From positions 186,001 through 250,000 of the forward strand of contig JAMXBD010000237.1 of assembly GCA_024138025.1 (NCBI GenBank): DNA of 64,000 bases, written 5' to 3'. A program made the position numbers and the translations under genes. The DNA is from Combretum micranthum. Taxonomy: Eukaryota; Streptophyta; Magnoliopsida; Myrtales; Combretaceae. The notes below the pieces were generated by a model. That model saw only the letters and a list, made by a program, of their open reading frames with translations. It made no database searches and was not told the origin of the DNA. This document shows positions 14,764-46,131 of the stretch, piece after piece. Position 1 is the stretch's first letter; every line of letters starts with the position of its first letter.

Positions 14764-17237
14764 CCCTGTCATTATGCAATGGCATGGTAATTAGCCATTG
14801 AGATGACAAGATGCATTGACTAATATCATGATGCAATGGCTAAATTTATATGAGACGCAGCGAGTAGCCGATGGGGCAAATGGTATCAACGTGACGTCTA
14901 CTTAGGCTCGGAATGGACATGTTTTAGTTCACATTTATATGATCAGTTGAACTAACTGATGTTATGGACTATGATGAGTGGAATGTGTGTAATGGTTGTG
15001 AACCCTAGACGATGCTATTTCTCTTTCTCGGTTAGATATAGACGATATAAGTATTCACGTTACTTATACCACCTCTCTAAACAGTTGCTATTACTCAGGA
15101 ACCCGGTTTCCCCTGGATTGTTCTGGAGTGTGAGTGTTCCGGTATTGATTTGTTTACTTTAAATTAAAGATAATAACTTCTTGTTTGTGCATTGCATTTA
15201 GCTAGGCTTGTATGCCATTTCATGTGTGTCTGAGTTACTATGTACTAAGCTTTGGCTCATTATTGTTGTTGTTATTCTTTTCTAGATATTTTGTTTATGA
15301 TGATGATATTGTTAGTGATTGTGTCCTAGGCCAATTATTGGATATTGTCATTTAATATTTATATATATAAATAAACAGAGGCATTTCTTTTGTATTGTTT
15401 GTATATTTATTTTATAATAGAAATCCATGAATAATTTATTATTCTAAATGTTCTTAGATGCTCCTTATTATGGGATAATAATGAATTAAATCTAGTATGA
15501 GTTTTTATTTGGTAAACATGGGATGTCTATTTGTATGGTGATACAAATGAAACTCATAGGCACATATTAGATGACTGTGTGTTGAACTGATCCACGATGA
15601 GATCACTACATAGAATATTGTCATAAGTGATTTTCATAATAATTATGTCAACGTATCCTTAGACCTGAAGTCACCATAGGTTCCAACATGAGAAACGTTA
15701 TGTTTCAACTCAATCAAACGTTGTCTTTAACCGGATAATTATAAAGGTCAAGTTTGGGCATAATGTATATCATGTAGAGGAAGTTGAGTGATTAAGATGG
15801 GATTTGTCCCTCTCGTTATGAGAGAGGTATCTTAGGGCCCCTCGATAAGTGAGACTGAGAAATGCATGGCCATGCTCAAATGAATTGATAGTATGATCAA
15901 TTTCATTTGTATTATTAGATCTCTTGAAAATCGAGAAATGATAAGATTGAACAATATAAGAATGACACTTTCCATGTCTTATATTCAATCTAGATATCAT
16001 GTGACAAAAAGGATAATGATATAAATTATAGATCAGATAAAAATCGGATTACTGATATTCACCTAATTTGGGTAGACATAATGTCTTGCCAGAGACCAAT
16101 GATGTCTTATAGGTCTAAAAGGTGTTTAGGACCTACTGCCAACATTAGGTGTACCTACAGGGTCACACATAAAAGAACGAATGAAATATATTATGGGTTT
16201 ATATTTAAACCTATAGGAATTATTATATTTATTATTCTTAAATAGTTTAAGAATAATAAATGATTATGACAGATAATTAATATTTAATGAAATAATGTAT
16301 TTTATTAAATATTAAATAAATATCTCATCATATTTATTTTCTAGGGTTTCCTACATGTCTATATATATAGATTTATAGACAGCCTTTTAGGTTAGACTCT
16401 TTGACGTCACATTAGACGGCAGAGAAATTCTGCAAACCTAAAAGAGAGAAAAGAAGAAAAATAATTCTAACACGAATTGAATTCGTGTTCTTGAGTGCTA
16501 GCGCACAATCATTCGCGTGTGGATACCATAGAGGGGATTACGAGACTGCAGTTCCTACAAATCCGATCTGCTGATCGTTTTGAAAGCATCAATATAAGGT
16601 ATATTTAAGAAACCTTTTTTTTTTTTGTCAGATCTAATCAAGAAACATGGATACTGGTATAAGGTTTTCATTTTTCCGCTGTGTTTTTACAAAATTTTCG
16701 AAATTTTTGTATCAATAAAACCCTATAGATGATATGTTGATGATGTTGATGATTAGATAATGATCATGTTGATGTTGATGATGATAGAGTTGGTGATGAT
16801 GAAGTTGATGTTTGATTTAGGTTAGGGGCGATCCTAGAGATTTGAGAGGAGAAGTGAAGTGAGTTAGGATTGAAGATATATTTTATTGTGTTTATGGTTT
16901 ATTGTAAAGAGCTAGATTTATCTTTTGAATTTTTATTTTCTGTCAAGGGGCCTATTGTAGCCATATGTTTGTAAATGTTAATCTATCTATGAGAGTAGAT
17001 TGTAAATTATTTTATAAAATTTTGTTTCTTAGAAAGTTAGTCGGCTCTGGTGGGAGTAAAGATCTTTATTATGTTTTTATAAACTTTGATTTTTCTATAA
17101 CTCCAGTTGTTTTAGAAATCTAAACAAACAATTTAATTAATTAAAATATGTTGGCAATGTCCAAAATAAATATGTCATTCTAGGAAGCTAGAGTGTGTAA
17201 TACATAAAGTATTATACATGGCAGTTAAGGTGCTACA
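14764..17237 (+). mobile_element. Decayed Gypsy-type LTR tail interrupted by a Copia-like LTR fragment
   Basis: The right end (17195-17237) has the hairpin-like GTAATACATAAAGTATTATAC followed by GGCAG and a terminal TGCTACA, matching the organisation of other LTR ends here. Sequence at 16980-17237 also resembles 35145-35442. Around 15310-16725 it is interrupted by AT-rich LTR-like DNA. GATGATAT occurs on both sides, but simple GAT repeats make an exact target duplication uncertain. Confidence 0.45.
15320..16725 (+). mobile_element. Probable Copia-like LTR fragment
   Basis: The stretch looks like an LTR promoter/leader: a TATATATA/TTTATAG region near 16360-16380, a perfect 15-bp-arm hairpin (TTTATTATTCTTAAA and its complement) near 16230-16262, and a 10-bp-arm palindrome centred on AACACGAATT near 16470-16490. 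No second LTR, primer-binding site or coding region is present. The boundaries are approximate and the family is inferred from general resemblance only. Confidence 0.4.
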
Positions 17238-20470: not shown

Positions 20471-21158
20471 ATGACTCATTTATTAAACATGAGCAATAGA
20501 CATGAAATAGAAAAATTATACTTTAGGAGTAGTATTACTGGTAAGAAATTAAGAATATCGTATTCCAACATTTACTTTATTTAAAATTCTATTACCGGGA
20601 ATATACTTTCTAACATTTACTTTAACTTATCAATTATAGCATTAAACAAAGAATACAACTAAATATATCATTATAATGGAATAAATAAAAAATTACTTAT
20701 ACCTACTTGATGTATAACCTATAGATTTTATACATATATATAGATGTGTTATATACATACATATTATGTCATACATGATATATATTTTATAACACACATA
20801 ATATATTTGTTTCATCTAAAAAATAAGTCATAATACACATATATACAGGTATAATATATAAATTATGTATTATTAACCTATTGATCTTGTATATGTAGAT
20901 CAGTATATAAATAAACATATACATTATAAATATTCTTTATATATATGTTATGTCACACATATATTATGTATGTGTATATATATGTGTCTAAGCGATATAT
21001 GTTATATATAATGCATATTTTCTTGGTACTCTATAAGTTATATATGTATTATATACAATCTACCAACTTTAAAAATGTTCAACATGTCATCTCTACAAAC
21101 TATAGATTTTGTAATTGTGAGTGTTATATCTATACATATGATAGTTATAGATATTTGA
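20471..21158. other. AT-rich low-complexity DNA upstream of the duplicated block
   Basis: TA/CATA-rich simple sequence with no gene. The open frame at 20945-21163 is a product of TAT-rich repeats. This stretch is absent upstream of copy 2, so the duplication (or its surviving part) starts at 21159. Confidence 0.5.
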
Positions 21159-22626
21159 TTTAAATATTATATGGTACATATATTGCATATATAATATATG
21201 CTATATATGTTGCAAATTAATCAATTATATATTAATATGTAAATTTTATATAATTTATTTGTTAAATATGATCTATATTACATATATTATATTCTATACA
21301 TAATTTATAATATACTATACTTACATATATATATATAATTTGTTTCTTATATGAATAGTTGTCACTTTTTAAATTAGTAAAGATAATAATATTATATTTT
21401 TAACGAAATAGGCATACAAAACAATACCAATATACTTAATAGGTCCATGGGTTTGTAAATGGGATTAGTGACTAAACCCAGATCCAAACACTTTTAAATT
21501 AGTTTCATTTTTGGGTTTGATCCTTTTATTATTCATATCAATTTTTACTTACCCAAACCTTTTTTATAATCCTATTATGTCATGTTTCGGATTCATGGGT
21601 TGAGTCTTGAATTGCCAGCTTTAACATTCATCATAATTTCTTTTTTTTTTTTCTCTCTCTCTCTCTCTTTGTTCCTTACTTTAGAATAGTTGGAGAGGGT
21701 AAATTTACAAGAATGCCCCATATCCTGGACATAATAATTTTTTAGATATTAGACTAAGGATGCAACCAGATAGATTATTATAGGGTATCCGACTCGTTTA
21801 AGAACCTATAAGGTTTTGAGACGGGTTTGGAAAGACTTTTGTAACCTAATAGAGTTTAAGGTCGAGTCATGGATCATAGTTATGACCCAATAGGACCCGA
21901 TCCAATAAGTTATGATAAAATAAAGAATAAATAATTATTAAAAACTTAAATTCAAACTAAAAAAAAAAACCTTAAAAAGTAAAATTTCTAGAGACATAAT
22001 TTTAGCAAAAGATGATTGTATGAATTATTTATTGCAATGATATTTTTTATAATTTAATTGGATGCTTGAACAATCAATGCATTCATATTTCTTAATATTC
22101 ACGTTGCATTTCTAATTTTATCATAGAACACACTAGTTTAAATTTTGTAATGTGCACTAAAAATGTTATCTAGTTAACTTTTTTTTCCTCCTTTTCCCAA
22201 TTGAAATAAATAACAAGATAGAATGAGTGAATTCTAAGATTTTGTCACCATGACATAAATCCTTTCAAAAATAAAAGTAAACAAAAATAACTTTAAAAAT
22301 TAAGAAAAAAATAGAGAGACCCTATGAGAGCGGGTTAGGTCGGTTCAGCCCAAAACCCTATATAAATAGGTTTTTGTGACAAGAAAAAATCCTATAAGAA
22401 GAAGGTCCCAAAAATATATATAATATATATATATATATAGAAAGTGGATTAGGTTTGGATTTTATATGACCTATCCCAAGCTCACTTCGATTACATCCTT
22501 ATGTTTGACCGAGTTGTTCCTATATTAGGGGATGTGGAGATTTTCACTCTATTAAGTTGTGCTTTTCCTTCCTTTGACATATCATTAGACGTACACCCAG
22601 CAGCAACATCAGCAAGTTAATTAAGG

Positions 22627-23421
22627 ATGCCGCTGCAATCACAAGGCAAGTAATGAAATCCCATGAATGTCTGTTGTTACTAGTTAAGTTACACTACACG
22701 TATTTGAATTTTGCTTCTCCTTTTATTTATTTTTATATTTAATATATATATATATATATATATTGTTTTTCACCCCATCTACAGTTGTACCGTTAGAGAT
22801 TGCTGGCGCTGGAGTCGTTGAATCAAAAGAGCTATCAGCGTTACGCATCTTATTCGCAGTGACGTTCGCTCTCACTGGGTTTTGTTTTGCAATCCTAATT
22901 GTTGGTAATTTTCTTATAGCAACTGAACCTTGCCTTACGGTTGAATCAATCAACCCGCTCACTCCTATAAATGTTACTGCTCCCCAAAATCCTCCTCAAC
23001 ATCTCCATCGTCTAGTATTACCGGCTCATGGAACGTCTCATTCGGTTTATACAATCGTGTTCATGTGCAAATCACCTATTACGATAATATTGATGTAACG
23101 TTGTATTATCGTAATGTTTCCATCGGACACACGACCATCCACTTCTCTAATCTCCACCAGCGTAAACGCCAAACTAGGATCCACATGACCACTAGGATTG
23201 ATACTGAATCGGCGCATCTTGATGATCTTGTGGCTTATTATTTAGCACGGGATATAGACGATGGAAGAACCATCGCCATTTATCAATTGGAAGTGGTGGT
23301 CCATGCTCGTGTTATGCCGAATTGGCGGCTTGGCCGAAAATCAACACTCAAGTTCAAGTTTGATACGACACAAGGTTCACCTGGCTATGGGCTTTGGCCA
23401 TCTTGTTCTGTTATACTCTAG
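22627..23421 (+). pseudogene. LEA_2/NDR1-HIN1-like (NHL) membrane protein gene, copy 1, frameshifted
   Basis: Members of this plant family have a short cytoplasmic tail, one membrane span and an LEA_2 domain, and are often defence- or stress-linked. Here exon 1 would start at ATG 22627 and end at 22645; the donor is GC rather than GT. The acceptor AG is 22783-22784 and exon 2 runs 22785-23421. The encoded order is a hydrophobic span (about 22835-22925), a proline-rich linker, then the LEA_2 region with the SVSFGLYN-like and YYDNIDVTLYYRN motifs. Copy 2 has one more C in the CCC run near 22990, so copy 1 carries a 1-bp deletion that breaks the frame before the LEA_2 domain; the second half is open in another frame to TAG 23419-23421. 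The intact length would be about 215 residues. Family assignment is from motif pattern; specific function is unknown. Confidence 0.7.
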
Positions 23422-23660
23422 TTTCATTGTTATCATTGGAAGGACAAATTTTCGGCTTTATTTCTTTACTTAACTATCTGTTAGCACCACTATTTGAGAT
23501 TAAAGAGTCTTAGTCAATTCCCTCCCCATTAGATTATAGTGTCTTAGGAATTTTTTAGCTGGACTGATGTTTTGGGTTTTTCTGTTAATTGTTATTTATT
23601 GTTATTAGAGTTTATATTCTGAAAAATCAATGGTGAAGACCGTTTCATTAAATTATTAAA

Positions 23661-24009
23661 GGGTTATTTACAAAATCTTATCGTGTTTTAACCAATTTGT
23701 AAACACATGTCCTGTGTTAATTTTTTTTTTAGACAAATAGATGACCTGAATTTTATACAAAAGTGTCAATATTATGTAATAATTTTATAATAACACCTAA
23801 AAAATGATTTTTAATATTTTACTTATTTAATTTTTTAAGTAATAATTTTTATTAAATTATTTTTTTTAAACCAATAAAACTTTAAACATATCATTCTAAA
23901 TTAATTAATTATATAAACAATTTTGTATCATCTATTTGTCAAAAAAATTAACACATATCATGTATTCGTAAATTGACCAAAACACAAAATATGTCTTTGT
24001 AATTAACCC
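23661..24009. mobile_element. Mutator-like MITE, copy 1
   Basis: About 100-bp terminal inverted repeats starting GGGTTATTTACAAA and ending TTTGTAATTAACCC, with AT-rich loop DNA between. The flanks are ATTATTAAA (23652-23660) and ATTATTGAAA (24010-24019), consistent with the 9-10 bp target duplications of Mutator-type elements. It encodes nothing. The same insertion is in duplication copy 2, so it predates the duplication. Confidence 0.7.
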
Positions 24010-25110
24010 ATTATTGAAACTATTAATATTTTTTCACTTCAATATTTTTGTAATCAATTTAATGATAATCTTACCGATCGTAGCATAGAAATTTTATTAT
24101 TCTTCCCACTAAATGGTAAAGCTTTTCCCTAAATTTGATCTATAACTTTGTGTAAATTAAACTTAGTGATAAAGCAATAAATTTTCTTTAAATGATAATC
24201 AAAACGAACATATTGCTAACATCACATACTATAAAAATATATGATACTGATATATGCTATTACTTAATTCTAGGAAACATAATATATTAGAATTTTATGT
24301 AATCACATATATGTATCGCATATAAAAAGTTATCATCATCCAAAAGATATCAGTAAAACATTACGAATTAGGAGTTGTATTGTCTTGCATTTATGTATAA
24401 ATTGTAGTAATTCTAATAGTTACATTACTTCCAATGAAAACAATGTGTTTTAGACAAAAGCTTTTTGGAAGTAAAAGCCTTTATAATTGAATGATACAAA
24501 CACCAATCTCCTAGTAAAATTAATCTAGTCCGTCCCCTTTGTCTAAAGTTGTAGTTAGTAGTAAATGGTTTAAAAAAAAAAAAAGCTTCTAGAGTTAAAT
24601 ATTTTCTAGCTAAAGTCCCATGCCATACATGGATTTTGATTTAAGGTATATATATTTACTTAAAGGTTTTTCTCAATTAACAAATCAAAGATATAACATG
24701 TTAATACTACATTCATATTTAAAAAGAAATTGCCATGACATTACTATTTATTAGGATAGTGTTAAAACCACAACCTAAAATTTGGTTTTTTTCCTTTTGT
24801 TTCCTTTTTATCTCACCTAAAATTTTAAGTTGGTAAATGTGATCCAATTTTTTATATAGGATTGGTTCCACTAGTTATTAATAACTTAAATCTATATTAA
24901 ACCATGATTAAACCACTGAAATATTTTTTTAATAACATCTATAGTCAATTCAATAGTCGAATCAAGACTTGTATGATCCCATGATAGAACTATAAAAATG
25001 TTGTACCCAATCCAACTTTCACTTATCAAATATTATACTTAATTAAATTTTTTACTTGTCAAATTGACTACCCCTATTATGTTAACAAAAATGATGTGAC
25101 AAATACTCAT
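24010..25110. other. Gene-free flank within duplication copy 1
   Basis: AT-rich DNA with no supportable gene, matched at 46726-47839 in copy 2. Confidence 0.6.
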
Positions 25111-25639
25111 TGTCACGACCCGCCTTTTAAGGGGTCTGCTAAAAAATATGGTACCTAAAAAGCAAATGCCGTCCTTTAAGTAAGGATAAGGCTATTATAA
25201 ATTTTTCAAACTTCTTATAACTTATATTTCCATGGACATCACAAAACCGTGTGGTTTACACTACTATATTATTTAAAGCAAATATGGTTTACTTAACCCA
25301 TAATAGTGTCTTACTAATATAGACTTTGTACAAGCCATAAAAGTTTTAAAGATAACTTTTGTATAGCAACCTATAATCTCAAGCTGTTTTCAACGATTAG
25401 ATCCTCTAAGCAGGTAGTTGGAACTCTCAATGCAATTTCCGAAACCCCTCTTAACAGCAGCAAGCATAGTCTTCAGTACCTGAGGTTAGAAACACTAACC
25501 CCTCAGTTCCTTTGAACTAAGTGAGTATAAAAAGCACATAAAATAAATAGTAGAAAGGTACAATTTATTGAAATTTAAAACTTCATATGCAACCGTATGT
25601 CATGCTAATGCACGTGACATGCACTGGCCAGTATCTTAA

Positions 25640-25876
25640 CCGAGCAGAGCAGCCTTTAGGCGACTCAAAAGCAGTATTTCACTGCTTAACCGAGCAGAGC
25701 GGCATGATGCGGCTCTAAAATAAACCGAGCAGGAATCAACCCAAGGGGATTTGGATTCCTAAATCCGAGCAGAATCCAAAGATTCAATAACCGAGCAAGT
25801 GGCCTGTAGGCGACTTAAAATCCGAGCAAGCGGCCGTAGGTAGCTTAAATCGAGCAATGCAATTCTATATGCATTA
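25640..25876. repeat. Array of seven CCGAGCA motifs, each followed by a different hairpin
   Basis: Motif starts are 25640, 25690, 25725, 25765, 25791, 25822 and 25850 (the last reads TCGAGCA). Hairpins after them include AGGAATC/GATTCCT (7 bp), GAATC/GATTC, AAGT+GCC/GGC+ACTT, AAGC/GCTT, and AATGCA/TGCATT. Stems differ between units while the motif is constant. The inner LTR landed immediately after the last hairpin. Confidence 0.75.
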
Positions 25877-26407
25877 TGTCACGACTCTAAATGGGGGCCT
25901 AACAGGATTTATCTAAAGCCATCATATCACGTGTGCACCCGTAACATGAGAGCCGTCTTATATGTCAGAGTATACAAGACTCTATTTCTTTATAAATATT
26001 TATCATACAATTAATATAATATATTATAGTATTTCAACTATGGAATCCTATTTTCCAATTTCCACCAAGATCGCAGAGAATCGGTATCCCCCACCAAATA
26101 GTGAAATTGGGTTTCCAAACTACAACATACAAAATTCAAAATTCATTTAATTTACATTCTAAGTTTCCATATCCATATCTCTATCTTCAATAAAGTTTGT
26201 TGGAGAAGCTCTCTTCACACATTCCTAGCCCAATCCCAGCTAGTAATATTCCTGCACAAAAACTGTAGGGGGTGAGCGAACCACGGGCTCAGTGAGTTCA
26301 TTCCTCACTACTACCGGTCACGCAAGTTATCAAACATTAATTATACACTCATGCAAATCTATCTATACGCAATATGAATGCATACGTAATGAATGCAAGC
26401 AACACAT

Positions 26408-26816
26408 CTATGGGGGTCCGGAACCATAGACGATGTAGATTTACCTGTCTACACTTCAGTTGTCTCCCATACTTACCCGCATGGGACACCTCGCCTTAAC
26501 CGTACGAGGCTGCCTGGTGGTTTCGTCCATCCAGACTCACCCAATGCTTAACCGCCATTGGTAACAACAAATATTCCCCAACGTGTTCACGTGATTTACG
26601 TTGGTTCATATTTAAATATATATAATGCCAATTTAATGGTCATTCTTACAATCCATCACCAATCTATGGTGAATCGCACAAGTAGACCCCTACACGGGTA
26701 ACATCTACTGCCAAAAAGAACCATCACCTATAAAGGTGAATCCGGCGGATAGACCCAAATTCAGGTAACATCTATCGCCAAGTGACCAGTGGACCCAAAT
26801 TCAGGCCACATCCACT
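26408..26816. repeat. Chain of about ten consecutive small hairpins
   Basis: Perfect stems with short loops follow one another: CTATGG (26408-26429), TGTAGA (26434-26453), CCCAT (about 26467), CCTCG (about 26489), CCAATG (about 26541), CCAACGT (26578-26604), CACC (about 26656), AGTAGA (26681-26709), CACC (about 26723), GATAGA (26748-26776) and AGTGGA (26788-26816). The last part is a 67-bp tandem repeat whose stems differ but remain paired. Confidence 0.75.
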
Positions 26817-27972
26817 GTCACAACAATACTCGGAAATGTCCCATGTTTATCTCATAAACTCTTTTAGTATAAATTTTCCTTTCCAAAGGATATAAAAAAA
26901 CCTGGAATATTCCAAGTCGGATTTCTTTAAAATACATTTCAAAATACTTTTGTTTTCAAAATTGGGACATTTCCTACAAGGGGATCAAGCACATGCGACG
27001 AGTATATCCAATTAGTTTAGTCGAATAATTATCTTTATCCATTTATGCAGGTGATCATGCGGATGATAACACTCATATCAATCAGTCATTCCATACAAGC
27101 AATACAATCAACATAACAGCAAGCAGTAGCAATCACAAGCAAATAGTAGATCATCAGAATTCCCTCACCTGTGGTCCTCGCTAAGCTACTGGCAGTCCGG
27201 AATTGATCTATTTTCCTATGAAAGGAAATAACAGAGATTTATTATTGGATTATTTCTGTAAGAGAAGTCTTCCTATAATTTAAAGGTGTTGATCTCTATC
27301 GTCGGATATTAAACTAAGTCCGTCATATTAATTACCGTATCGTTAAATAATTTAATTGAATCCTTATAGGTGCCTAACTATTCCGTATCGGTATTTGGTA
27401 TAGTTTTTATTAATTGCTATCTATATTTTTATTCAAGAGGTTTGTCTTTTCTTAAGTTCTACTGCTTTTAATAGAAGATTTTTATTTATTAATTCTTTGC
27501 CCGTCAACCTTATCTGTCTCTCAAATTGGTATTTTTATTTATTTAAGGGTATGTTTTAATATCTATATCTTTCAAAAGTTATAAAAATCGTATGTAGATA
27601 TATCAAATTTCTATTATATTTCAGTTTTATTTTTGTTGTAAAACAAGCTTAAGTGTAATACTATAATATTATTAGTAATATTAGTATTGAAAAATCAATA
27701 TCGTATTAGTATTAAATACAAGTATAATAATAACAACAATTTTTAGATAACTAGTAATTAATACCATAAGTGACAAAAGTAGAATTGATGATAGTATAAT
27801 TATAGTGACTTTAATGTAAAATAACAATATTGATAACTCTAATGAAAATATTAATAATACGAATACTATAAACAGTAGTATTAAATAGTAATAATCATAA
27901 CTATATTAATAGAAATAACAGTAACATTGATATAAGTTTAAAAGTGAAACTGAGTGAATTTCTATTTGTGAT

Positions 27973-28400
27973 TTCTTATTCGTTTTAAATCCGATTTCGT
28001 TGTATAAATAGTCGATTTGATAGTACTCGAAGAGTACTTTATAGTAGTGAAATTATTTTCAAAAAAGAGACTTGTACAATTTTTAAATTTATGAAGAACA
28101 TACATAGGTTTCAAGTGAATCTAATAGTTGTAGTCGAAACTTGTTTTGATCATATCTAACTCATTTCTAATCCGTTTTTGACGAATAAATAGTCGTTTTC
28201 GTAGTATTTTCCGAGTACAATCCATTAATGGTCTTAGTTTATCAAACAAAGTCATTAAGGGGACGAAAAGTACAAGAACAGCCGCTCTGTTCGTGTAGAT
28301 CTGGCAGCAGAAATTCCGTTTTTGTTTTTGTAATATCTAATTCGTTTCTTATCCGTTTTTAACAAATAAATAGTCGATTTCATAGGATTTTTCGTGTTCT
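27973..28400. repeat. Three degenerate tandem repeats, period about 181 bp
   Basis: The core 'TCGTTTCTAATCCGTTTTT...AATAAATAGTCG' recurs at about 27977, 28157 and 28337 inside the inner solo LTR. Each copy is followed by a GAGTAC- or GTGTTC-like segment. No coding potential. Confidence 0.65.
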
Positions 28401-31400
28401 TTCCATTGGTGGGGTTTTTTGGCTTATAAAAACACATCAATACAGTTTATTCATCTTTCCAACGGTTTCATGAGTTATTAAAGTTAATTTAGTTTGTTGT
28501 AGTTTAAGTATGGTTTTGGTTTTTCCTTTATTGGATTTGAATTCTATACTTAAAAACTTCAAGTTGATGTGTTATATACTAAATAGTCTATATACATAAA
28601 TATATTGTTAGATCTATTTTGGGTAAGTTATAAGATAATTTCTAGAGATAAAACAAAATGAACACTTGCATTAATATAATTCTTACCTTGTTGGATGATA
28701 GTGGGGTTTGTTCCTCCTTGATGAAGTAATGATCTAAAGAGGATAGTAAGGAAATGAGTATCTAAGGAAAAATTAATCTAGCTAACATAAAGATCTATTT
28801 TGTTTCTTACCTTGCTGTATCTAATCTTTAACTTGAATCTATGATGAACCAATGTTATCTAGCTTGCTCTTTGGTGTTGTTTGGATTAGTTAGAGTCGGG
28901 TTTCAATTGTGTGGATGAGTATCAATGTTCGGCTAGGGTTATAGGATATAAACAAGGGTGATACTTTATTTTTTTGGAGTGTTGAAACAAATTTGAACAA
29001 GTGAGCAAGAAGGGGAAAATATGAAATTCGTGTGGCTTTTTGGGGCAGATTTTTGGGTTGTGTTTGGGGAGAATTTGAGTTGGTTTTGTAGCCAACTTAT
29101 GCTTATATATGTATACAAAGATTAGGCTAAGATTTAGGTACATGGGACGGTGTTTTGGACTTGATAAATACAAATTTTCTGTTGATGTTTCTCGGGTAGA
29201 AATGTAATGCGAATTTGAGGACGAATTTTGGATGAATTTATGTGAAATTTGTGGCTGATTTCAAGGGGAATTAAATGTGTTTGTTTGGTAGTTAATAAAG
29301 GTTGTTTATGTGTGTAAAATAGAGGCTCAAATTGCAAGAAAATCGGGTCAAAATTGTGTGAAAACAGAGGTCAAAAATCAAAGTTTTCTGCTGCTGTTTT
29401 GTTATCTTTCTATGTTGGTTTGTATGAATTTTTTTTTTTTTTGTTCAGATTTCCCTTGTTCTTTCCTAGCTAATAAATGGTGGTTGAAGTATCCATATAG
29501 AGGCCTACTATTGGTGGTTGTTTGGTCAAAAATCTCCACTCAAGCTAAGCCTATATGTTTATCTAAAATCGGGCTAGAAAGTGTGGATGTTGCTGTTCTG
29601 TTTTGAATTCTCTGCTGCAGCTGCTGGTTTGGGATTTTCAAGACAGATTTGGTGTTGTTTTGGTTGATTATTTGAGCTTTAATTCTTGGCATTTAATGTT
29701 GATTACATGTGGAGTATTTTAGTTGGATTTCAAGTCATTTTCAAGTTGGATTTGTGTGTTTAAATTTGGAGCAAAGTTGGGTAAAAGTCAGCTATGGGTG
29801 CTCTGTTCTGGTTCTACTCTGTTCCAGCTGGAATTTCAACTCCTTGCTTACGTGAAGATGAAGTGAACTGCTGCTGAGGACTCCAACCAGTTGCCTTCGT
29901 GACCTTTCCGTGCGTGGAGAAGAAGCGGCTCGTGTATGAGGGCTTCATGTGCCTGCAGTTGCTCGTGTGCATGGGAGAGGAGCTGCTGCTTGCGCGTGTG
30001 GAATTCTTTTGTTCGTGACAACCAACTGCAGCGCATGGGCATTCTCTGTTCCAGCTGTCTTGCGGCTGTGAATTGCGTGGAGTCCAGCAGCTGTTTGCTT
30101 GGGCGTGTGGGCGTGGGAAGTGAACTGCAGCGCGTGGAGTAAGGCCACTGTATCGGCATTCTGCTGCTTGAGCGTGGAAACAAAACTCTGCTCGGTCAAC
30201 TTCAATGCTTATGCTGCTTCGGAATCCTGACCGTGCGTGGAGAAAAATGGCCTTTGATCCAGCGTTTCACGTGTTTGCATTATCCCCTGCTCATCCGATA
30301 CGTTCACTTTCCGTTCCAGTTTTCTTTATTATTATTATCATCTAATTAATAGTTAACTACAATAATTTAACAAATATTACTTCATAAACATATATTTATA
30401 ACCGTTACGTATAAGTTTTATCTAGATGAAATTATTTAAGTGTCTACAACACTCTAGATTATTTATATATTCAAGTTTTTAGTTTAAAGTTTACACGGTT
30501 AATTATTTTTAGTATTTTAACTTACGTGATTATATTTTCAAGTTCGATGAATTAAGTTAGGAACCAAGTCCTAATAAATTCAAAATTTCCTAACAAGTAC
30601 AACAGCGGGTTTAAATTTTTATTTTAGATCTAGATTAGTATTTATTAATCGGTATTGGTATATAATGTGTATATATAATCTTAGTATTTCCTATTTGAGT
30701 TATTGTTCTATACCGATAAGCTTTATTATTAAACTGTATCTTATCGGTTTTGAAATTGGGAGTTACTTCTAATTATATCGTGAATCATCAGTTCAAGGTA
30801 CGAAATCTCGTTTTTGGTATCTATTAAGGTCAAAGAAGTTTTATTCGGGTTTTTCAAACTACGAAGAAGTTTATTACAACCCATAGGTTTATTCTAAGAT
30901 ATATAATATATATATATTTTTTTTTTTTGGTTGAATCATATATTTGATATTTGCCAATTTGTTAATTTTCTAATTTTGAAATTATTGAATGTTATATTGG
31001 CAACTCAGGATTTTAATTTCTAAAATCTATAAATCTTTTCATTAGAATATTAGTATGTTTTAATTATTTATTTAAGATCTAGATTCTTAGATATTGATCT
31101 ATGTTACCAAATATTATATTTTACTGTATAGAATCTATTTATACTAATTTGTTATTAGCAACCTATTTTCATGTAGGCTACTCAATATTGTTAATAGATA
31201 GCTTGAACGGTATTATTTCATTATTTAACAAGCGTAGAATTTATTTTCTAAGTATTGAACTTAAGGAAAAAGAATTTAGTAACTTTATATTAATGATTGA
31301 TTTATCGCTGTTTTAAATTATTTGAGATTATAGAAGTTTACTTTTGTATTTTCGAAAAATTTTATTAATAGAGATTTTAATCTTTCTAACTATAATCAAA

Positions 31401-33777
31401 TTCATTCTTTGACATTTGTGAATCGAGAAAAAATTTGGAGTGATTTTTACTACTTGTTCCAAATATTTTATATAATCAAATATTACATTTTTAGTATTTG
31501 TTATAATTAGATTACGTAAAATTTGGGGGATTACACATTAAATCAAGCTTATAATCCGAGATTTACGAGAAAACCAAGCTATATCAAATCATGACCCTGA
31601 GGTCCATTTGTTAAAAATCGATCTCTTGAAATATGGCCCTTGGGCCCTTTCGTGTCGTGTCATGCCATGAATGCAATAGTTCAATCACCATTAACCACTC
31701 AAGAATTGAACATATATTCCAAGTAATAGAATCGTGACATGACAATCAATTCATGCAATCATATAGATTAAACTTAGACAATAAATATACTCACATCACC
31801 AACAATCAGTTCACATATCGAGTATCAACAAAGTAACCACATAAACAATAAGTTCATCATGTCATGTGACCTACTTAAGTAAAGTCACATTGATACAAAA
31901 ACAACAAGCGGGTGGCCTACGGTCTGTCGACCATTCCGCATAACAAGCAATAAACAAGGGGTACTCACCTGATATACTGAATCCTTTAACCCACATGTTC
32001 ACCAGATCCTATATGTACTTTAATAAGTTAGTATAAAAATATGGTAATTTAGTACCATAAGATTTTAATAAATCATAATTTCTTTATTTCTGTTTCTCAC
32101 AAAATATGACCAAGGTAAAAATTATTATTATCATGGTTTAGATATTCTCTTAAAACCGATGGTAACTTGTCACCACTAAATATTAAATGTTATGAAATAT
32201 TCTAAGGTCTCCCATACGTACATTAGTATTTGTAACTATAATATGAATATTCGCATATATATATATATATAATCATATAAAGGACATACTGAATATGTTT
32301 ACATATAGAAAACAAGTTTAATACATATATGTTCTTATGTGTACTTCACATACAAATTGGAAAAACACTTTATGTATATATGTATAATATATTCATGTAC
32401 AATCGTATAGTGAAGATTTTATATTTAACATTATAAGTGAAGCTGCGTGAAACAATATATCCGTCTTTCTTGCCGCAACTAGTCAGTGGAGATTTAGTTC
32501 TTATAATCTTCTTTGTTGTATCCTTATAATATTTATAAGTATGTATTCTTGTTTTTAAGCCACTTATTATTTAACTAAAGTCGGAATAATTATAATAACT
32601 AAAAAAAAAATATCCTTTAAAATCCGCATATGAATATAGACATGATTACGTAGTAAATTAGAACATGATAAATATTATGTATATGGACATTTCATATCTA
32701 ATTGGTTTATAAATTTTCCTGAAACCTAGTATACATAATTAGTGAGTTTAGCATACGTGATAACATTACGAATGCAATTATGGCGACATCCAAAAGGGTT
32801 ATTATTATCGTTTTTATTACTACTACCACAACAAGGAAGGCTATTTATCGTATGGAATAGAGAATTCCTGATATATGTGTTTCCTATGATAGATTTTATG
32901 ATATATTTATATCTAATAAAGACATGCATATAGAAGAAAATAATAAACATAAGAGCAGTATTACCTTTCTAATTGGTATGGTATAAGGAAATTTGTTGAA
33001 GTGGGTTTTCACCTTTTTTTTTTTTCTTCTTTCAACTGGATACTTTAAGGAACGTGGATGACGGTAGGTTACGAATATTTAGACGAATTGATTAGAGAAT
33101 ATAAGAATGTGGGCAGTGTGGTTTTATGTTAGGAATGGCAATTTAAAGGAGTTTAAAAAAAAATTGAGTACATGACGTGAAGCTCGGCAATGACAGGTTA
33201 GGGCACATATGTCAACACCTAATGTTCCTTTGTACAGTTGGCTTTGCAGCTCGGTGACCAGTGTTTTTTATTTCCAAAACAAAGGCCTGACTTATGATAT
33301 ACGAACACATATGAGTTCGCTGGCAATAGGATTTTGTATTTTATTTTATTTTATTTTATTTTTTTAGTAAAATAATAATATCTATATGTATATATACAAT
33401 GTTGACTATAAATATTATGTTGATTGTGTTTATACACATTTAACATAGATGATGCACATTTATATTATTTGCTTCGTAACTCAAACTCTGTGAGGCAAAT
33501 TTTTATTTAACTTGTGAGACCATAAACAAAAATCATAGATGTCAATTCTAAGCCCCAAAATTAGTAAATTTCCAAGCTTGGTCTCACACTCATTAAATAA
33601 AAGTATTAATAGAGATTAACTAGAGGTGAAAATGTTAATGTGAATGTGGTTGAGAAAAAATTATTTATGATAAAAATTAATATGAATACTGAATAGACCC
33701 TGTATGGATTAAATTTTTTTATGGAACCGTACATCACGATATACCAATATAGATAATTCGAGAACAGTAACTCTTCA

Positions 33778-34446
33778 GACAGTAACCAATATATTTAAAG
33801 GCCCCACTCAACACATCTCTTTTATCAAATTATGAAGCGTAAAATTAAAGGAAAAAAAGAGTTAGTAATGCTTCATTATATTCATTGAAAATTAAAAGAA
33901 GAACTTTTTTTTTTTTTTTTTTGCCAAAGACTTTATAATCTAATGCTATCGCTCTGGTCTTCCCAAAGAAAATGTGTCAATTTGATTTCTACCTTCTATT
34001 ATTGTAGTGGCCAAAAGAAAAAAATTATATCCATACTTAATATGCTCATGTTTTCCAGAAGATATTCTATCACCATCAATTTTGAAAGATATTTTTCCAG
34101 GATTTTCAAATTTCACATAGTGCAAAAGAGATGCTCATTAACAGGATACAAAAAAGATCCAAATAAGTCGTAAGAATGCAAAACAAATGAAATGAGTTCA
34201 CTATCACCAAAAGATCTTAACCATGCGAGAACTATTACCGTCTTTCTCATTCCTACTAAAAAGTGCATAGAAAATGAAAAACTAGCTTTTCCCTTATTTC
34301 CGGGAACAAAAAAAGCATCAATGGTGGACCGAGTTAGAGGAAAAATAATATTCAAGGAGTAGTACTTACACTTCATGAGCAACAGATTTTTGTTTGTAAA
34401 TTTTGGAAGGATGAATTGCTAAATTTTCTTTCTATAAGTGGCGGTA
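33778..34446. other. 669 bp present only in duplication copy 1
   Basis: Copy 2 passes directly from ACTCTTCA to TTCTCG (about 48021-48030). No target duplication brackets the extra DNA, so deletion from copy 2 is at least as likely as insertion here. A minus-strand open frame (34113-34382, 89 codons) is the only coding-like signal and has no recognisable motif. Confidence 0.6.
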
Positions 34447-35077
34447 TTCTCGATTATTAGGTCACTCCTGCAATTGTTCCTTATAAATGGGTCACGGTAT
34501 TAGATTTAGAAGGATTTCATTATTATTTTTTATATTATGGAAAGTTATATATTTGTTTTATAATCAGTTCTTTAATGGTTCAAATTTAATAGATATTTAC
34601 CATAGATATTAATGTATATAACATAATTTTTACATATATAAAATCCACAAACTATAAACATATAATATAATTATAATTCATTTGTTACATAAATTAAATA
34701 TGTTACATCGTGTGTTTAGAACATAATATATAAATCATATATAACATATTATACAAATTTAAGATAATATATAATATAAATGACATATATATTGTAAATA
34801 TTATGTGTAATATACATATATATGACATATAATAAATATAAATAAATAATCCCTAACATGTTGTGTTTTAATATGATTGAATCTTTTAATATGTTATGTT
34901 TCTCGTATTATAGCTTTTAAGCATATTGTGTTTGTTGGTTATAATTACAAGATCATATACTTGTTAGTTAAAAATATGGGACTGTTTTTCTTTTTTCTTT
35001 TTTTGTTACCATCAATTATTTCCACTAATGCCATTGAAATACCCAAACCCTTACCTAGTTAATTTAGAAACAGTTTA

Positions 35078-36102
35078 ATTAAATAATATAATAGATAGTT
35101 AATTTCGAATATAGTTAGACAATTTAAATAGATAAAATGATTATCTACCCCCAAGAGTAGATTGCAAAATGTTTTATTAAAATTTTGTTTCTTAGAAAGT
35201 TGATATGCTCGGTTGAGAGTACAGTTTTTATTTAAAAGTTGCTTTGTAAAATAGATTTTCCACTACTAAATCCAGTTATTTGAAAATCTAACTAAACAAT
35301 TTCATAACCTAAATTGAGTAGCAATGTTTAATATAAACAAAATCTTTTAAAGGAAGCATGAGTTTGTAATACTTTAGAATATTATACGTGACGGTAGCGC
35401 CCTAATTGATTTAATGTTTAATTAAGTTTTTAGGATGTTACAAAGAATAAATCTATCGAACCTATTCCACTTCACTAGTTCTCCCATATTCATCAATAAC
35501 GCCCCTTAACCTTTGTAACGCTCCTCTTGAGTTTGTATCTTACTTCCTAACTTTATATCTAGTTTGTGATGGCTTAGAAGGAATTGAAATGGATAAAATT
35601 TGGATTTGTTTGGGCTTGAGAGAAGAAAAGAAACGGAGAGAGAGAGATGATGGGAGAGAGGGTCTATTTTAGGGTAGATATTTGTTGCCTACTTTTGACT
35701 TTGGGGGCATATATGGAACTCTTTAGAAGGTGTAGGAACATGGGCTTTGGACTATAGGTTTTGTGTGTGTGGGCTTGGTTATTAATTTCGTTGAACTTAG
35801 GCTAAAATTTAGGCTCCAAATCTGCTAAGGTTTACAATTAATCACACATACAACTTAATTTAAGTGAATTTCTACAAACATATATATTTACAATTCTACT
35901 AACACATATATACTGCAATTACAAGAATTTCTCATATATAAAGAATTTGTCATATCATCAAATTAAGTTATACTAACTTAACTATAACAATTAAATTCAT
36001 AAATCATCAATTAATTATATAAAAGCAAATTAGTTTAATATATTAATTTTAGATTATTTCATACTATGTGTTTCAAAATTAACTATCTATTATATTATTT
36101 TA
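35078..36102. repeat. 1-kb segment bounded by a 26-bp inverted repeat
   Basis: AAATAATATAATAGATAGTT (35081-35100) is met in inverse orientation near 36080-36100, with further pairing outside this core. It is present in both duplication copies (copy 2 arms near 48667 and 49513). It could be a small non-autonomous DNA transposon; no target duplication was defined. Confidence 0.4.
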
Positions 36103-38662
36103 AAATATAGAGGTTTATATTATACTTACGTTTTTTGTTCAAAATTTAAGTTTTACTTTATTTTATGGTTTATTTAATATTTTACAATTGTCGGGATTGT
36201 TTAATTGAGTCCAAGGTTACGTGTTGACTCGGGTTCACTTTTAGTATTAATTTAAATTTTCTATTCTATAATTCGCTGAAAGTTTTAAAATTTTATAATG
36301 TTGTCATTAAATAATATGTGGGTGTGTTGTCTCGAGTCATGTGTTAGGGATCAAATAGATGAATTGTTAAGCGTACGGGTTTGAATCGAGTCCGTTTTGT
36401 TTTTTGAAGATTCTCTTTTTCTTAAGATTATGAAATTCATATTTGATCTTATTTAGAGTTTCTAGAATTCAGTTTTAACTTGGGTTTATTTTGGGGATTT
36501 GATTTCGGTATTAGCTTTAAGATTATTATTTTTTTTTAAGAATACCAAAAAATTCAGGGGTTTGCATAAATGGCATGCTTTCCCATAGGGTGTTGTCCCC
36601 AAGAGTGTTTTAAAAGTAATTTAATAGGCCCAAAGACCATCATCTATTTCTTCAGTCCAGTCTTTCCTGTTTGTTGTGACTGATTTTTCCAAGATTCATT
36701 TGAGTTCTCTATTAAAAACTAAAGGTGCATAGCTTAAGTATGTTTGCCATCTTGTATTTGCTTGTGTTATTACGTATTGGATCTCTGGCTCATGATATTA
36801 CCTTGCAGGTGATGTTGATGATGATTACTATAATGATATGAGATACAGGACTGATTGGGAAGCCTTTTTAGACTAGTGGGATGGCTAGGAAACCCATGTG
36901 TGAACCAAGCTGTTATGTTTAAGTTTTCTTAAAGACTTTGAAGAAGAAATATATTTTGTTATAGGCTTGTTGTAAAAGCCTTAGTTTGTAAAATAAGATT
37001 TTAAGTGTGTTTCTTATGCTTTCTTCATAAACAAGTTTTGTATCCTTTGAAGTGTCATTGGTATGACACTAAAGTTATTCTAAGTTTTGTAAAGTTAACC
37101 TACTCATGTACTGAGTAGTTTTACATTAAAGTTCTATGAAATTATCACAGAATTAAACAAATAATCAATATATTTATCTTCTTTATGGACAACCTCACGT
37201 ATAATACTTCAGTACTTTATAATACTAGAGTATTATGCACGGTTGAGGGATTTGACATGCCTAATAGTGGTATTAGGTAGGTCGGGTCCTTTCATAGTAA
37301 GATTTATTTTCAAATATAATTAATGTTAAAATCAATCTAATTATAAAAGATTTTATTGAAATTGAAAATATATGCAAAAAAATTATTCATGATTGAAATT
37401 ATTAGATACAAATAATTTTCTTTTTAATTCTAAATTAATATAATGGTTAAAAATATAAAATTATAATGGTTAAAATCAATAGATAATTGAAGATCATTTT
37501 CCGGCATTTGTGCTCAAATCAATGGAACATGATAATCCTTAATTATTTGGCTGCATCAAATTTCTATAACTACAAAAGTCAGGTAGACACACAGATAAGA
37601 TTTAATCATAACCTCGATATAAAAGAGGATTCTGACAAAGACGCACAAAGTAGAGTTTAATTCAATTACCCATCAATTAAAAGTCAGTTTAATGTAAAGC
37701 TTTGTTTTACAAAAGGGACACTTGGAATTCATTGAATCTCAGCCTGCAGCTTCAGAAATTGATAAAATGTATTCAAACCTTTGATTCCAGATTGAGAATC
37801 CTCACAAATTATTGGCCTTAATAAAATGTTGCTTTTGTTCGTTCTATTCAAAAATCAATATAATGTAGCGCTTTCGCAGGTTACATGGGACTATGGGAGT
37901 TCCCAAAATTAAACCAGAATATGAACAATAGTGAATCTTTTCCCTTGGTAGTGGGCAATGACATTGAATTTGCAAGTTGAGCATACATGTCCTGCTTATG
38001 GTTATTCACCTATCAGATCTGTATTCTGTATAATTTTTCTCAGACAGCAGGATACCTTTTAAAAGAAACTTCTTGTAGCTACAAATCCCAACACAGCAAT
38101 ACTGATCAACACATTTGTTATGAGAAATCATTTCTGTTATCTCCATTCCTGTTGCATAGTTTCTGCTACTTGTTTAGCACAAAAAAAATTACCTCAGCAA
38201 ACCTCATACACCGATAACATCCTTAGGCAAGAAGCTCAACCAAACTAAACCCTCAATCTAGCATTGCCTTTGCTCTTAGATAATTTAACCAGACATCATT
38301 TATCACTTTACAGCATAATTAGTAAAATGGTTCAATGAGCCAACTCTAACCAAATTGTCACACACAGAGGCAAATGATCTCATTTTCCTAATATTCATAT
38401 CACATCTGAGTTCAAGCACACTGGGTAATCAAGCAATAAATTCTTTCAGACTTCATATACAAATAACTATAGTCCTATTACCTTCTTGTTACATTAGAAT
38501 TCAGTTCCCTCCCTATTCTATATGGTGAAGTGAATGCGTCATAAGCAATATGACCATTTTCCAACTTTAGCTTTAGTGACCTTCAATGGTGGTGGCGGTC
38601 CAAGGCTTGAGTGCAGAGCATCATCATTAATTTCAACCGTTTCAAACAACAACATCAATCAT

Positions 38663-40306
38663 GTTGGTTTCTCTCAAATGATGATTTTGATGATAACAAA
38701 AAGAAGTAAGTAATAACTAACATATTCAGTCAGCGTGCAAGGATTCAATATAATCAAAGTGGTTTACAATGACTTAAGAGAATGATTTCAAAAGAGGCTT
38801 TAAGCAAAGAATACTTTAGATAGTGTTTGGAGAAGATTTCAAGAGCAAATGAGTTGTTAGAAGGTTAATCAGAAGGTTCTCCACTGGCTTTTTAAACCAT
38901 CAGAAGGTTCGTCAGAAGGTGACCTGCAGTTTTTTGCTAAGCACGAACAGTGTGCTCCAAATTCAAATTTTTCTTTATGGATTTGATTTTTTGAAGACCC
39001 ATCTCCAATGTTGAGTATATTTGGGTAATATACTCAATGTATTCCACAAAGTTGGTTTAATATCCATGGGGATTCAAATTTCGTTGGATTAAAGTTCATT
39101 TTTTTTGGGAAATTTATGTTTTGACAGCAAGGGAAAGTCACGTACTTACAAGGATCCATCTTCAACAGTTTATTCAAGTTTTATTTGGAAATATGGAAGA
39201 CATGATCCAAATATGCAAGGAACTTGTCTAATGATTATTTGTCTATACAATAAAGTCAAAATTTGTGGAAAATAAGATCTTTTTGTTGCATGAACAGTAC
39301 CAGACGAAGGAACAAGTCAACAACGGTGATTTCAAATTTGAATTTCAAGTTCAAGATAATTGTACAAGTTGTTGGAGATTTAAACTTATCCATTAGAGCA
39401 AAAATTTCAAGATAATTACATCAAGATATCAAGAGTCAAAATTTACAGATTTTGAAGAATGAGATAAGCTGATATCATGATAGATATTGCTGATAAACTC
39501 CAACTGATATCATGCACAAGAAAATAGGAATAAGCTTATCCATTTCTTTTACTAGCCGTTGGTGTTATGAAGATAAAACTAGCGTTCATCCAAGAGAGAG
39601 AAAATATAAGAAAAATCTCACGTGAAAAAGAACAAGAACCATCAGTGATAAAAGCTCTCCTTCTTTATATGCAAAATATTGTCATCTTTCTATTATTGCA
39701 TTTTGAGCGAAATTTTGTGAATACCTACTCTTTTTTCCTCTTATTTGATTTTACATAATTAGTGTAAGTTGAGAGTTACAAGTAGGCTTAGTAGATTGAT
39801 TGATTAGGAGAATCAAGCTAAGTGAATTGTAGCCAAAGAGAATTGGCAAGAACTTCTTGTAACTTTATTATTGATTTGATTGGATAGTAGAACACAACCG
39901 GTGAGGAGTACCAGGACCCTGGCTTTGAGCTGGAAGAGAGGATTGACGCTCGAGGCGAACCTCTATATATCGATTTGCACTTTCTTCTCCTTATCTCTTT
40001 AATTTCATGATTTATTATTGATGTTTTATATGTGTGATATATACTCAGAAGATTAATCAGAGAGTAAATCATTCATATTTTTCTTACTCAAAGAGTTAAG
40101 AAGAAGGTTTCTAAGTGTGAAAGTCTTGAATCACTTTTGATCCGAATTTTTGCTTAAATCTTTTATTTGTTAAGATTATTGTCTTAAGAAAATTTTAAAG
40201 CCATTTTAGTTGAATAACCAAGTGGTGTGAAATTTATTCAAAATTTTGAAAAGTAAATTTTATAACCAATTCACCCCCCCTCTTGGTTATCTTTTCCGGA
40301 CCAACA
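38663..40306 (+). repeat. 5' LTR of the Sirevirus
   Basis: 1,644 bp with TG...CA ends. The first part matches the 3' LTR from 43133. It contains short direct repeats of ATCAGAAGGTT-type words (about 38870-38930); the 3' LTR has about 24 bp more in this array. Confidence 0.85.
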
Positions 40307-42481: not shown

Positions 42482-43132
42482 AAGGGGGAGCTTGTTTCTT
42501 AAAAGAAATTTATAAAGGGGGAGATATGTTTAAAACAAAGATAAGTACATTGAACAAATATGTTGAAATTGTTTTACTGTATGTTAAAGGACAATTTTCT
42601 GCAATATATGAACAAATTTATGTCATTTTTGCACTTTTTAAAAACAAAATTCTGCACTTTTTGAGGAAATCTTGCATTTTTTTTTTAAATTCTGCACTTT
42701 TCTACATTTTTTCTGCATTTTCTGTACAATTTCTGCATTTTATGCAATAAAACTGCATTTTTCTGCAATTTCTTTCTGCACAATTCCTGCATTGTTATGT
42801 ATTTTTTTGCATTTTTGTTGCAAGTTTCTGTATTTTCTGCACAAATAATTTCTGTTTAAAAAAAAATCTACATGATTTATAATTTTTCTGCAGCTTTCAA
42901 AAAAAAAGCATAAAAAAAACTACACTTTTGCAACAAAATGTTTCTTACATACATGAAAAGTGTGCTTAAATTAAAGGAATTCATATTTGGTTATATATTT
43001 TGAATGGATATTTTGTTTTGATGCTAACAAAAAAGGGGAGAAAGTAAACAAAATATGTAGATAGAACTTTACATTTTCAAAAAATCATTATTTTGTCTAT
43101 ATAGGTTTTGTTATCATCAAAAAGGAGGAGAA
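42482..43132 (+). other. Multiple polypurine tracts and TTCTGCA-rich low-complexity spacer
   Basis: Polypurine tracts occur at 42482-42490, 42514-42524, about 43029-43043 and 43120-43132, the last abutting the 3' LTR. Between the second and third (about 42590-42900) the sequence is T-rich with the word TTCTGCA or TTTTGCA repeated many times. The 17-bp inverted repeat TTTTGTTATCATCAAAA (43106-43122) pairs with 43156-43172 inside the LTR, flanking the LTR start. Confidence 0.7.
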
Positions 43133-43764
43133 TGTTGGTTTCTCTCAAATGATGATTTTGATGATAACAAAAAGAAGTAATAATAACTAACTATTCATTA
43201 AGCGTGCAAGGATTCATTATAATCAAAGTGGTTTACAATGACTTAAGAGAATGATTTCAAAAGAGGCTTTATGCAAAGAATACTTTAGATAGTGTTTGGA
43301 GAAGATTTCAAGAGCAAATGAGCTATAAGAAGGTTAATCAGAAGATTCTCCACTGGCTTTTTAAACCATCAGAAGGTTCGTCAGAAGGTCTATCAGAAGG
43401 TTCGTCAAAAGGTGACCTGCAGTTTTTTTGTTAAGCACGAACAATGTGCTTCAAATTCGAATTTTCTTTATGGATTTGATTTTTTGAAGACCCATCTCCA
43501 ATGTTGAGTATATTTGGGTAATATACTTAATGTGTTCCACAAAGTTGGTTCAATATCCATAGGGATTCAAATTTAGTTGGATTAAAATTCATTTTTTTTG
43601 GGAAATTTCTGTTTTGACAGCAAGGGAAAGTCACGTACTTACAAGGATCCATCTTCAACAGTTTATTCAAGTTTTATTTGGAATATGGAAGACATGATCC
43701 AAATATGCAAGGAACTTGTCTAATGATTATTTGTCTATACAAGGAAGTCAAAATTTGTGGAAAA
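43133..43764 (+). repeat. 3' LTR of the Sirevirus, truncated
   Basis: Starts TGTTGGTTTC as the 5' LTR does and matches it to about GTGGAAAAT (43764), then breaks off. The remaining about 1 kb of LTR and the right target duplication are missing. Confidence 0.8.
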
Positions 43765-43780
43765 TTTGTCTGATGATTTT
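43765..43780. other. Short filler at the duplication/Sirevirus junction
   Basis: TTGTCTGATGATTTT matches neither the continuation of the LTR nor the start of copy 2. It closely resembles TTGTCTAATGATTAT about 50 bp upstream (43716-43730). Confidence 0.6.
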
Positions 43781-45339: not shown

Positions 45340-46131
45340 ACGCCGCTGCAATCACAAGGTAAGTAATGAAATCCCATGAATATCTGTTGTTGCTTGATAA
45401 ATAACACTACACGTATTTGAATTTTGGTTCTTTCCTTTTTTATGTTTGTATTTTATTTTATTGTTTTTCCTCCATTTACAGTTGTACCTTTAGAGATTGC
45501 TGGCGCTCGAGTCGTTGAATCAATAAATCTAACGGAATTAGGCTTCTGTTTCCCAACTCGCAATTCCAATGGTGTGCGCTTTAATGGGGGTTTCTTTTGC
45601 AATCCCACTTGTTATTTTTCTTCTTATACAAACCGAACCTTGCCTTATCGTTGAATCAATCAATCCGCTCACTCCTATAAATGTTACTGTTCCCCAAAAT
45701 CCCTCCTCAACATCTCCATCGTCTAGTATTACCGGCTCATGGAACGTCTCATTCGGTTTATACAATCGTGTTCATGTGCAAGTCACCTATTACGATAATA
45801 TTGATGTAACGTTGTATTATCGTAATGTTTCCATTGGACAAACGACTATCCACATCTCTAATCTCCACCAGGGTAAAAGCCGAACTAGGATCCACATGAC
45901 CACAAGAATTGATACTGAATCGGCGCATCTTGATGATCTTGTAGCTTATTATTTAGCACGGGATATAGACGATGGAAGAACCATCGCCATTTATCAATTG
46001 GAAGTGGTGGTCCATGCCCTATTATGCCGAATTGGCGGCTTGGCCGAAAATCAACACTCAAGTTCAAGTTTGATACGACACAAGGTTCACCTGGCTATGG
46101 TTTTTGGCCATCTTGTTCTGTTATGCTCTAG
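45340..46131 (+). pseudogene. LEA_2/NHL-type membrane protein gene, copy 2, multiply broken
   Basis: The second copy of the gene at 22627-23421. The start codon position reads ACG (45340-45342) where copy 1 has ATG. The intron donor is a normal GT (45359-45360) and the acceptor AG is 45480-45481. The first about 110 bp of exon 2 are much more diverged from copy 1 than the rest and shift frame. The LEA_2 region is then open from 45569 (copy 1 is broken in this part), but a 1-bp deletion near 46015 shifts the last about 38 codons away from the C-terminus preserved in copy 1. TAG of the ancestral frame is 46129-46131. The two copies are broken at different places. Confidence 0.7.

Follow-up and report, generated by a model that had tools for sequence, protein, structure and literature searches.

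Examining a 64,000-nucleotide window of the Combretum micranthum genome (assembly GCA_024138025.1, contig JAMXBD010000237.1, positions 186,001 to 250,000 of the forward strand; coordinates below count from the first letter of this window), we found two solo long terminal repeats (LTRs), X and Y, one nested inside the other and each carrying an array of short hairpins. In both arrays, at this one locus, pairing persists while the letters of the stems differ: what is kept are the linkers in X, the loops in the Y repeat, and the pairing itself, and what changes are the stem letters. We tentatively prefer an account that combines self-templated copying between the two arms of a hairpin with functional retention of the hairpins, and we give it a probability of about 0.42.

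Density of hairpins in the two arrays

The X chain was unnoticed in the first-pass annotation of this DNA, which described three hairpins in Y, and is statistically stronger than those three. The window has 8 copies of its linker word CCGAGCA against 0.99 expected, six of them in the X chain, and the segments that follow the linkers fold as hairpins in 7 of 7 cases (Table 1). Selected by linker and blind to their stems, and with the last one running 1 base into Y, these segments have a summed folding energy without G-U pairs of -59.7 kcal/mol, whereas single-base (not dinucleotide) shuffles average -11.6 and reach -25.7 at best, so that 0 of 500 shuffled sets are as good. The stems themselves are mostly unrelated to one another (AGAGC/GCTCT, AGGAATC/GATTCCT, AAGCAGT/ACTGCTT, AATGCA/TGCATT, and others). 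Folded as a whole, the array has z scores of -2.83 on the + strand and -1.78 on the - strand with G-U pairs allowed, and of -3.12 and -1.89 without them; a perfect 8-bp stem arises in this region in 10 of 300 shuffles.

In Y, the three hairpins are part of a longer chain of perfect stems following one after another from 26291 to 26817. Between 26220 and 26830, limits that were picked after the hairpins had been seen, there are 11 non-overlapping perfect stems (at least 6 bp, at least 2 G/C) versus 1.74 (standard deviation 1.25) in dinucleotide shuffles, a count reached in 0 of 300. The blind count covers 635 overlapping windows of 600 bp, of which three reach 10 stems, all of them in this chain, with a maximum of 6 outside 26001-27200. 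Stem counts in the neighboring parts are ordinary, with 5 versus 4.74 at 26831-29400 and 9 versus 8.72 at 29401-33588, which includes the right piece of X. A stem excess is not exclusive to the Y chain, since it is also found at 15501-16500 (9 versus 2.43, 0 of 300 shuffles) and over 1-21000 (61 versus 46.2, 1 of 60). The nine non-overlapping perfect stems at 15501-16500 seem, by eye, to be unrelated to one another. None of the listed Y open reading frames (at least 55 residues) spans the three hairpins, and a search of the whole window with 4227 Rfam families gave 0 matches at gathering score.

The loops of the Y chain share a core, TTAMCYG, in both orientations (+ strand, 26441, 26473, 26496, and 26548; - strand, 26695 and 26762). 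There are 22 copies in the window, 7 in Y, 2 in the X array, and 13 elsewhere. All six Y-chain copies lie inside loops of perfect stems of at least 5 bp, versus 5.6% of random positions, as do one of the two in the X array and two of the 13 elsewhere; the seventh Y copy (30496) lies outside such loops. Folds centered on the six Y-chain cores were matched by 9, 3, 71, 0, 2, and 26 of 300 shuffles, the core at 26496 being unremarkable. CGGTTAA and GGTAA may resemble plant GT or MYB sites. Outside X and Y, a near-palindrome TATAACTTCTC..GAGAGTTATA surrounds CGGTTAA near 60327, and 0 of 300 shuffles are as stable.

Table 1. Hairpins, linkers, and LTR pieces of the X and Y arrays (a dot marks a feature given without a strand; for u1 to u7, n/500 is the number of shuffles of that segment alone folding as well)
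Feature	Position	Strand	Remarks
Left piece of LTR X	25111-25876	- (probable)	starts TGTCACGACCC, preceded by CTCAT duplication
X hairpin chain	25640-25876	.	seven [CT]CGAGCA linkers, hairpin after each; eight hairpins in total
[CT]CGAGCA linkers of X	25640, 25690, 25725, 25765, 25791, 25822, 25850
X unit u1	25646-25667	.	GAG..GCC TTTA GGC..CTC; 0/500
X hairpin	25669-25687	.	AAGCAGT atttc ACTGCTT
X unit u2	25696-25716	.	AGAGC.GCA TGA TGC.GCTCT; 0/500
X unit u3	25731-25760	.	AGGAATC..GATTCCT; 0/500
9-bp inverted copy	25750-25780	.	TTTGGATTC/GAATCCAAA, bridges u3 and u4 over the linker
X unit u4	25772-25785	.	GAATC..GATTC; 3/500
X unit u5	25797-25816	.	AAGT.GCC TGTA GGC.ACTT; 0/500
X unit u6	25828-25846	.	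AAGC..GCTT, weakest unit; 23/500
X unit u7	25856-25875	.	AATGCA attctata TGCATT, Y insertion at its edge; 1/500
LTR Y, solo	25877-31535	- (probable)	5659 bp, TGTCACGACTC...GGGGATTACA, CATTA duplication on both sides
Y hairpin	26291-26309	.	AGTGAG ttcattc CTCACT
Y hairpin	26407-26430	.	TCTATGG gggtccggaa CCATAGA
Y hairpin	26434-26453	.	TGTAGA tTTACCTG TCTACA
Y hairpin	26465-26486	.	TCCCAT acTTACCCGc ATGGGA
Y hairpin	26489-26509	.	CCTCG ccTTAACCGta CGAGG, 5 bp
Y hairpin	26541-26561	.	CCAATG cTTAACCGc CATTGG
Y hairpin	26578-26604	.	CCAACGT gttcacgtgattt ACGTTGG
Y hairpin, repeat unit 1	26656-26672	.	TCACCA atcta TGGTGA
Hairpin A	26681-26709	.	AGTAGA/TCTACT, perfect 6-bp stem by pair count
Y hairpin, repeat unit 2	26724-26739	.	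TCACCT ataa AGGTGA
Hairpin B	26748-26776	.	GATAGA/TCTATC; with outer arm GGC/GCC, 26744-26779
Hairpin C	26788-26816	.	AGTGGA/TCCACT; with outer arm GTGAC/GTCAC, 26782-26821
Right piece of LTR X	31536-33588	- (probable)	ends GGTCTCACA, followed by CTCAT duplication

Two-sided differences in the stems

The three hairpins singled out in the first-pass annotation (A, B, and C) were described as perfect 6-bp stems around 17-nucleotide loops of the form CCC...ACA within a 67-bp direct repeat, and this description holds letter for letter, with 72% identity over 47 nucleotides between 26668-26714 and 26735-26781. Hairpin C starts only 40 bp past hairpin B and is therefore a partial repeat unit. All stem differences are two-sided, with two pairs differing between A and B, one between A and C, and three between B and C, and every one of them is a transition. 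Thus, 18 of 18 cells are paired, and the three variable stem pairs have all changed on both sides. This covariation was matched in 14 of 500 shuffles of the 3' letters among the sequences and in 0 of 6 slid registers. Three sequences alone are thin evidence and would not carry a claim of kept pairing. When independent drift from hairpin B was simulated with the per-site divergence set between 10 and 50%, the probability of a fully paired stem with at least three two-sided changes ranged from 2.5e-6 to 1.9e-4 (5e-5 at 28%). The region around the trio (26640-26830) also folds better than its shuffles, with a z score of -4.58 on the + strand and about -2.56 to -2.88 on the - strand, and the signal is stronger on both strands when G-U pairs are forbidden (-5.24 and -4.45, compared to -4.58 and -2.88).

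Two more cases in the Y repeat had gone unmentioned. A second hairpin covaries between the repeat units, with TCACCA/TGGTGA in one and TCACCT/AGGTGA in the other, and one pair of the outer arm is likewise two-sided, being G-C in hairpin B and A-T in hairpin C. Among the X units, u1, u2, u5, and u6 can be aligned with one another, and 27 of their 28 cells pair, with three of four variable pairs changed on both sides; the defects are one broken cell (C-A in u1) and one G-U pair (u6), and the internal mismatch present in all four units is excluded from that count. The remaining units u3, u4, and u7 and the hairpin at 25669 are unalignable with these four and were excluded from both the X-unit and the pooled counts. 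Pooling the alignable families of both LTRs, with the outer arm of hairpin A excluded and the X internal mismatch pair included, the ten variable pairs comprise 33 cells, of which 27 are Watson-Crick versus 16.5 expected in shuffles (P = 0.000235), a value that flatters the result because some families entered the pool for their pairing; the linker test of X is free of this bias. The first-pass annotation had argued that drift of a tandem repeat should break stems, leaving either structural selection or copying that rewrites both arms. This interpretation is supported in part: plain drift is indeed a poor fit to the pooled count, and these are the right two readings to weigh.

Pairing chemistry bears on the choice between these readings. 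Among the pairs of 16 folded segments (excluding the Y hairpins at 26291, 26407, and 26578), G-U is scarce when the + strand is read (2 of 127 pairs). Stems of 8 bp with a single defect were also counted. In Y (26220-26830), two are of the A-C type (reached in 16 of 300 shuffles), none of the G-T type, and four of other types, and in X three are of the G-T type (4 of 300), none of the A-C type, and four of other types. Since Y leans to wobble pairing on the - strand and X to wobble pairing on the + strand, these one-defect stems do not single out any one transcript.

The nested LTRs and other features of the window

The first-pass annotation assigned the repeat to a solo LTR, which is correct in substance; the detail to be amended is that solo LTR Y sits nested inside solo LTR X, as the target-site duplications (TSDs) of both indicate. 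X and Y both have TG..CA ends plus a TSD (CTCAT and CATTA, respectively), and the first 5 bases of the right piece of X, from 31536, constitute the second copy of the Y TSD. A paralogous segment near 47830 is unbroken and has a single CTCAT, representing the empty site of X. The insertion of Y rests on its TSD, with CATTATG occurring five times in the window, once inside X. The left end TGTCACGACYC is common to X and Y and is matched exactly nowhere else in the window, and self-BLAST (E value of 1e-8, at least 100 bp) found no partner LTR for either in the window, which fits solo LTRs. A single LTR of 8.5 kb was considered and rejected when the nested TSD CATTA was found. The repeat described in the first-pass annotation lies 0.8 to 0.94 kb from the left end of Y.

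Sequences resembling a TATA box and splice donors on the - strand of Y (29096-29111 and 28804-28817) suggest that Y reads on that strand. From their end motifs, X and Y may belong to a Tekay-like lineage of Ty3/gypsy chromoviruses. An LTR-primer binding site junction used for comparison had no match in the viral contigs; solo LTRs carry neither pol domains nor a primer binding site. An exact-pattern search for other copies in viral and genome contigs returned one match, judged by eye to be chance, with coding-like surroundings and no hairpins (L001). The insertion point of Y borders the final X hairpin that can be seen (25856-25877). The accessible part of one study describes LTR retrotransposons as weakly preferring palindromic targets, with the nested elements considered there as an exception (PMC6911290), and we draw nothing from it for Y.

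The surroundings contain a segmental duplication, with pieces about 90 to 95% identical and one copy interrupted by X, that pairs 21150-25111 with 43772-47840; further pieces pair 33588-39273 with 43132-43765 and 47834-52101. Elsewhere, TTCTGCA is repeated nine times in 290 bp at 42596-42886, some 1.2 kb past a gag frame of copia type; a run of 34 C lies at 58246-58279; and 172-bp and 224-bp tandem repeats occupy 55879-56444 and 56524-56966. This gag frame and the LTR anatomy fit a plant origin of the window.

Proposed template switching, its rivals, and significance

In the account that we prefer, replication or reverse transcription would stall at a hairpin, and the new strand would briefly be templated by the opposite arm, so that one arm would be overwritten with the precise complement of its partner. 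Because arm is copied from arm, a one-sided mutation would become two-sided in one event. The hairpins would probably be kept through a cis role of loops, linkers, or folded RNA in the LTR. Copying at the DNA level is what the scarcity of G-U pairs on the + strand, the stronger z scores of the trio without G-U, and the 9-bp inverted copy in X point to, and the occurrence of TTAMCYG in both orientations would be expected if loops turn in place.

Several results weigh against this account. Each family comprises only three or four homologous sequences, all from one locus and without a phylogeny, and the changes in the trio, all transitions, would be produced equally well by selection through G-U intermediates. 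When the - strand is read, G-U pairs are not scarce (8 of 135), and on that strand the 26220-26640 part of the Y chain has a z score of -3.69 with G-U versus -2.30 without, favoring selection on RNA there. In X, perfect 6-bp stems alone give a weaker signal (3 versus 0.74, 9 of 300 shuffles), since several stems contain an internal mismatch, and the number of two-sided pairs in the aligned units is matched by 52 of 500 shuffles, although the covariation score is matched by only 9 of 500. The TTAMCYG core was defined after the loops had been seen, and loop sharing beyond the trio is weak, with an excess of shared words for 7-mers (12 of 2000) and none for 5-mers or 6-mers; the motif is therefore a lead only.

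The close rival is selection on RNA structure alone, in which the hairpins would serve the LTR transcript, for instance in its packaging, translation, stability, or handling by the silencing machinery, and substitutions would be compensated singly. We consider it somewhat doubtful, and the evidence on it is divided. The transitions of the trio leave open a route via G-U, the - strand z score of 26220-26640 is the strongest of the four versions folded, and the two one-defect stems of Y that are of the A-C type on the + strand are G-U on the - strand, which is also the more stable strand in eight of nine Y segments, though in three of seven X segments (single folds, with no shuffle control). The wobble-type defects in X are of the opposite, G-T type, so that transcription of one strand cannot account for X and Y together; moreover, stems in X and Y frequently share no sequence at all instead of differing step by step, and selection on an RNA fold sits poorly with a trio that folds better against its shuffles when G-U is forbidden. 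Selection might instead act on binding to DNA rather than on RNA folding, the palindromes serving as half-sites for dimeric or paired factors. That TTAMCYG recurs in the Y-chain loops and that TTAACCG stands at the X linker (25636 and 25686) speak for such sites, yet a bound half-site should fix the letters of the stem, which are the variable part here, and the shared-loop excess is weak in the unbiased count; we regard this explanation as quite improbable. Least credible is that inverted repeats arose by chance within a tandem repeat and drew attention through their pairing. The trio taken alone (14 of 500), the frequency of perfect 6-bp stems (195 in the window with at least 2 G/C), and the mild stem excess at 1-21000 and 15501-16500 would be compatible with chance, but the density in 26220-26830, the stem-blind result for the X segments, and the two-sided differences in both LTRs would not.

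Compared to known systems, the arrays resemble the LTRs of maize Sireviruses (Ty1/copia), in which cis-region palindrome clusters have strong predicted folding and an excess of small RNAs (Bousios et al. 2016, as cited in the accessible part of PMC10760457); according to the same part of that source, maize Ty3 elements in general show no clear peak of these structures. The likeness lies in short palindromes clustered within an LTR and the difference in the variable stems with kept linkers or loops of X and Y; the window contains no match to the Sirevirus palindrome CACCGGACNNNGTCCGGTG at a tolerance of up to 3 mismatches. Palindrome-rich LTRs are thus already known, and by this comparison the X and Y chains can be regarded as a variant of them. 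A closer mechanistic parallel is template switching, which has been proposed to make and repair stems and, very rarely, to invert whole loops as an inter-strand trace (Monttinen and Loytynoja 2022, accessible part of PMC8794818). Perfect stems, multi-base two-sided changes, and kept loops, with very rare loop inversion, are common ground, and two-sided changes clustered per stem with pairing kept are found here between paralogous hairpins. In contrast, the cases in that part of the source are RNA genes (rRNA and microRNA) studied with ancestral reconstruction, whereas here paralogous hairpins of a plant LTR are compared. The hairpin elements of sponge mitochondria, as far as the accessible part of PMC2800124 describes them, are also repeated and show a few complementary substitutions between types, but their stems are conserved and their loops vary, the reverse of X and Y, whose setting is an LTR. 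Among the listed titles and abstract openings of the open-licence literature, we found no report of plant LTRs with hairpin arrays in which the stems vary and the linkers or loops stay constant.

A broader possibility, which we hold to be unlikely, is a lineage of plant LTR retrotransposons with self-rewriting hairpin arrays, in which linkers or loops would be fixed and stems repeatedly regenerated by arm-to-arm template switching. Pairing would then last through rapid sequence change, and the element could perhaps retain a structure that it needs and still escape sequence-matched small RNAs. Whether compensatory changes originate by stepwise selection or in a single copying event is described as an open question in the accessible part of PMC8794818, and it could be tested by direct counting in an LTR family that has many copies, each with a dozen or more short hairpins. 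Such a family would also be informative on the way in which retrotransposons maintain structured control regions in the face of small-RNA surveillance.
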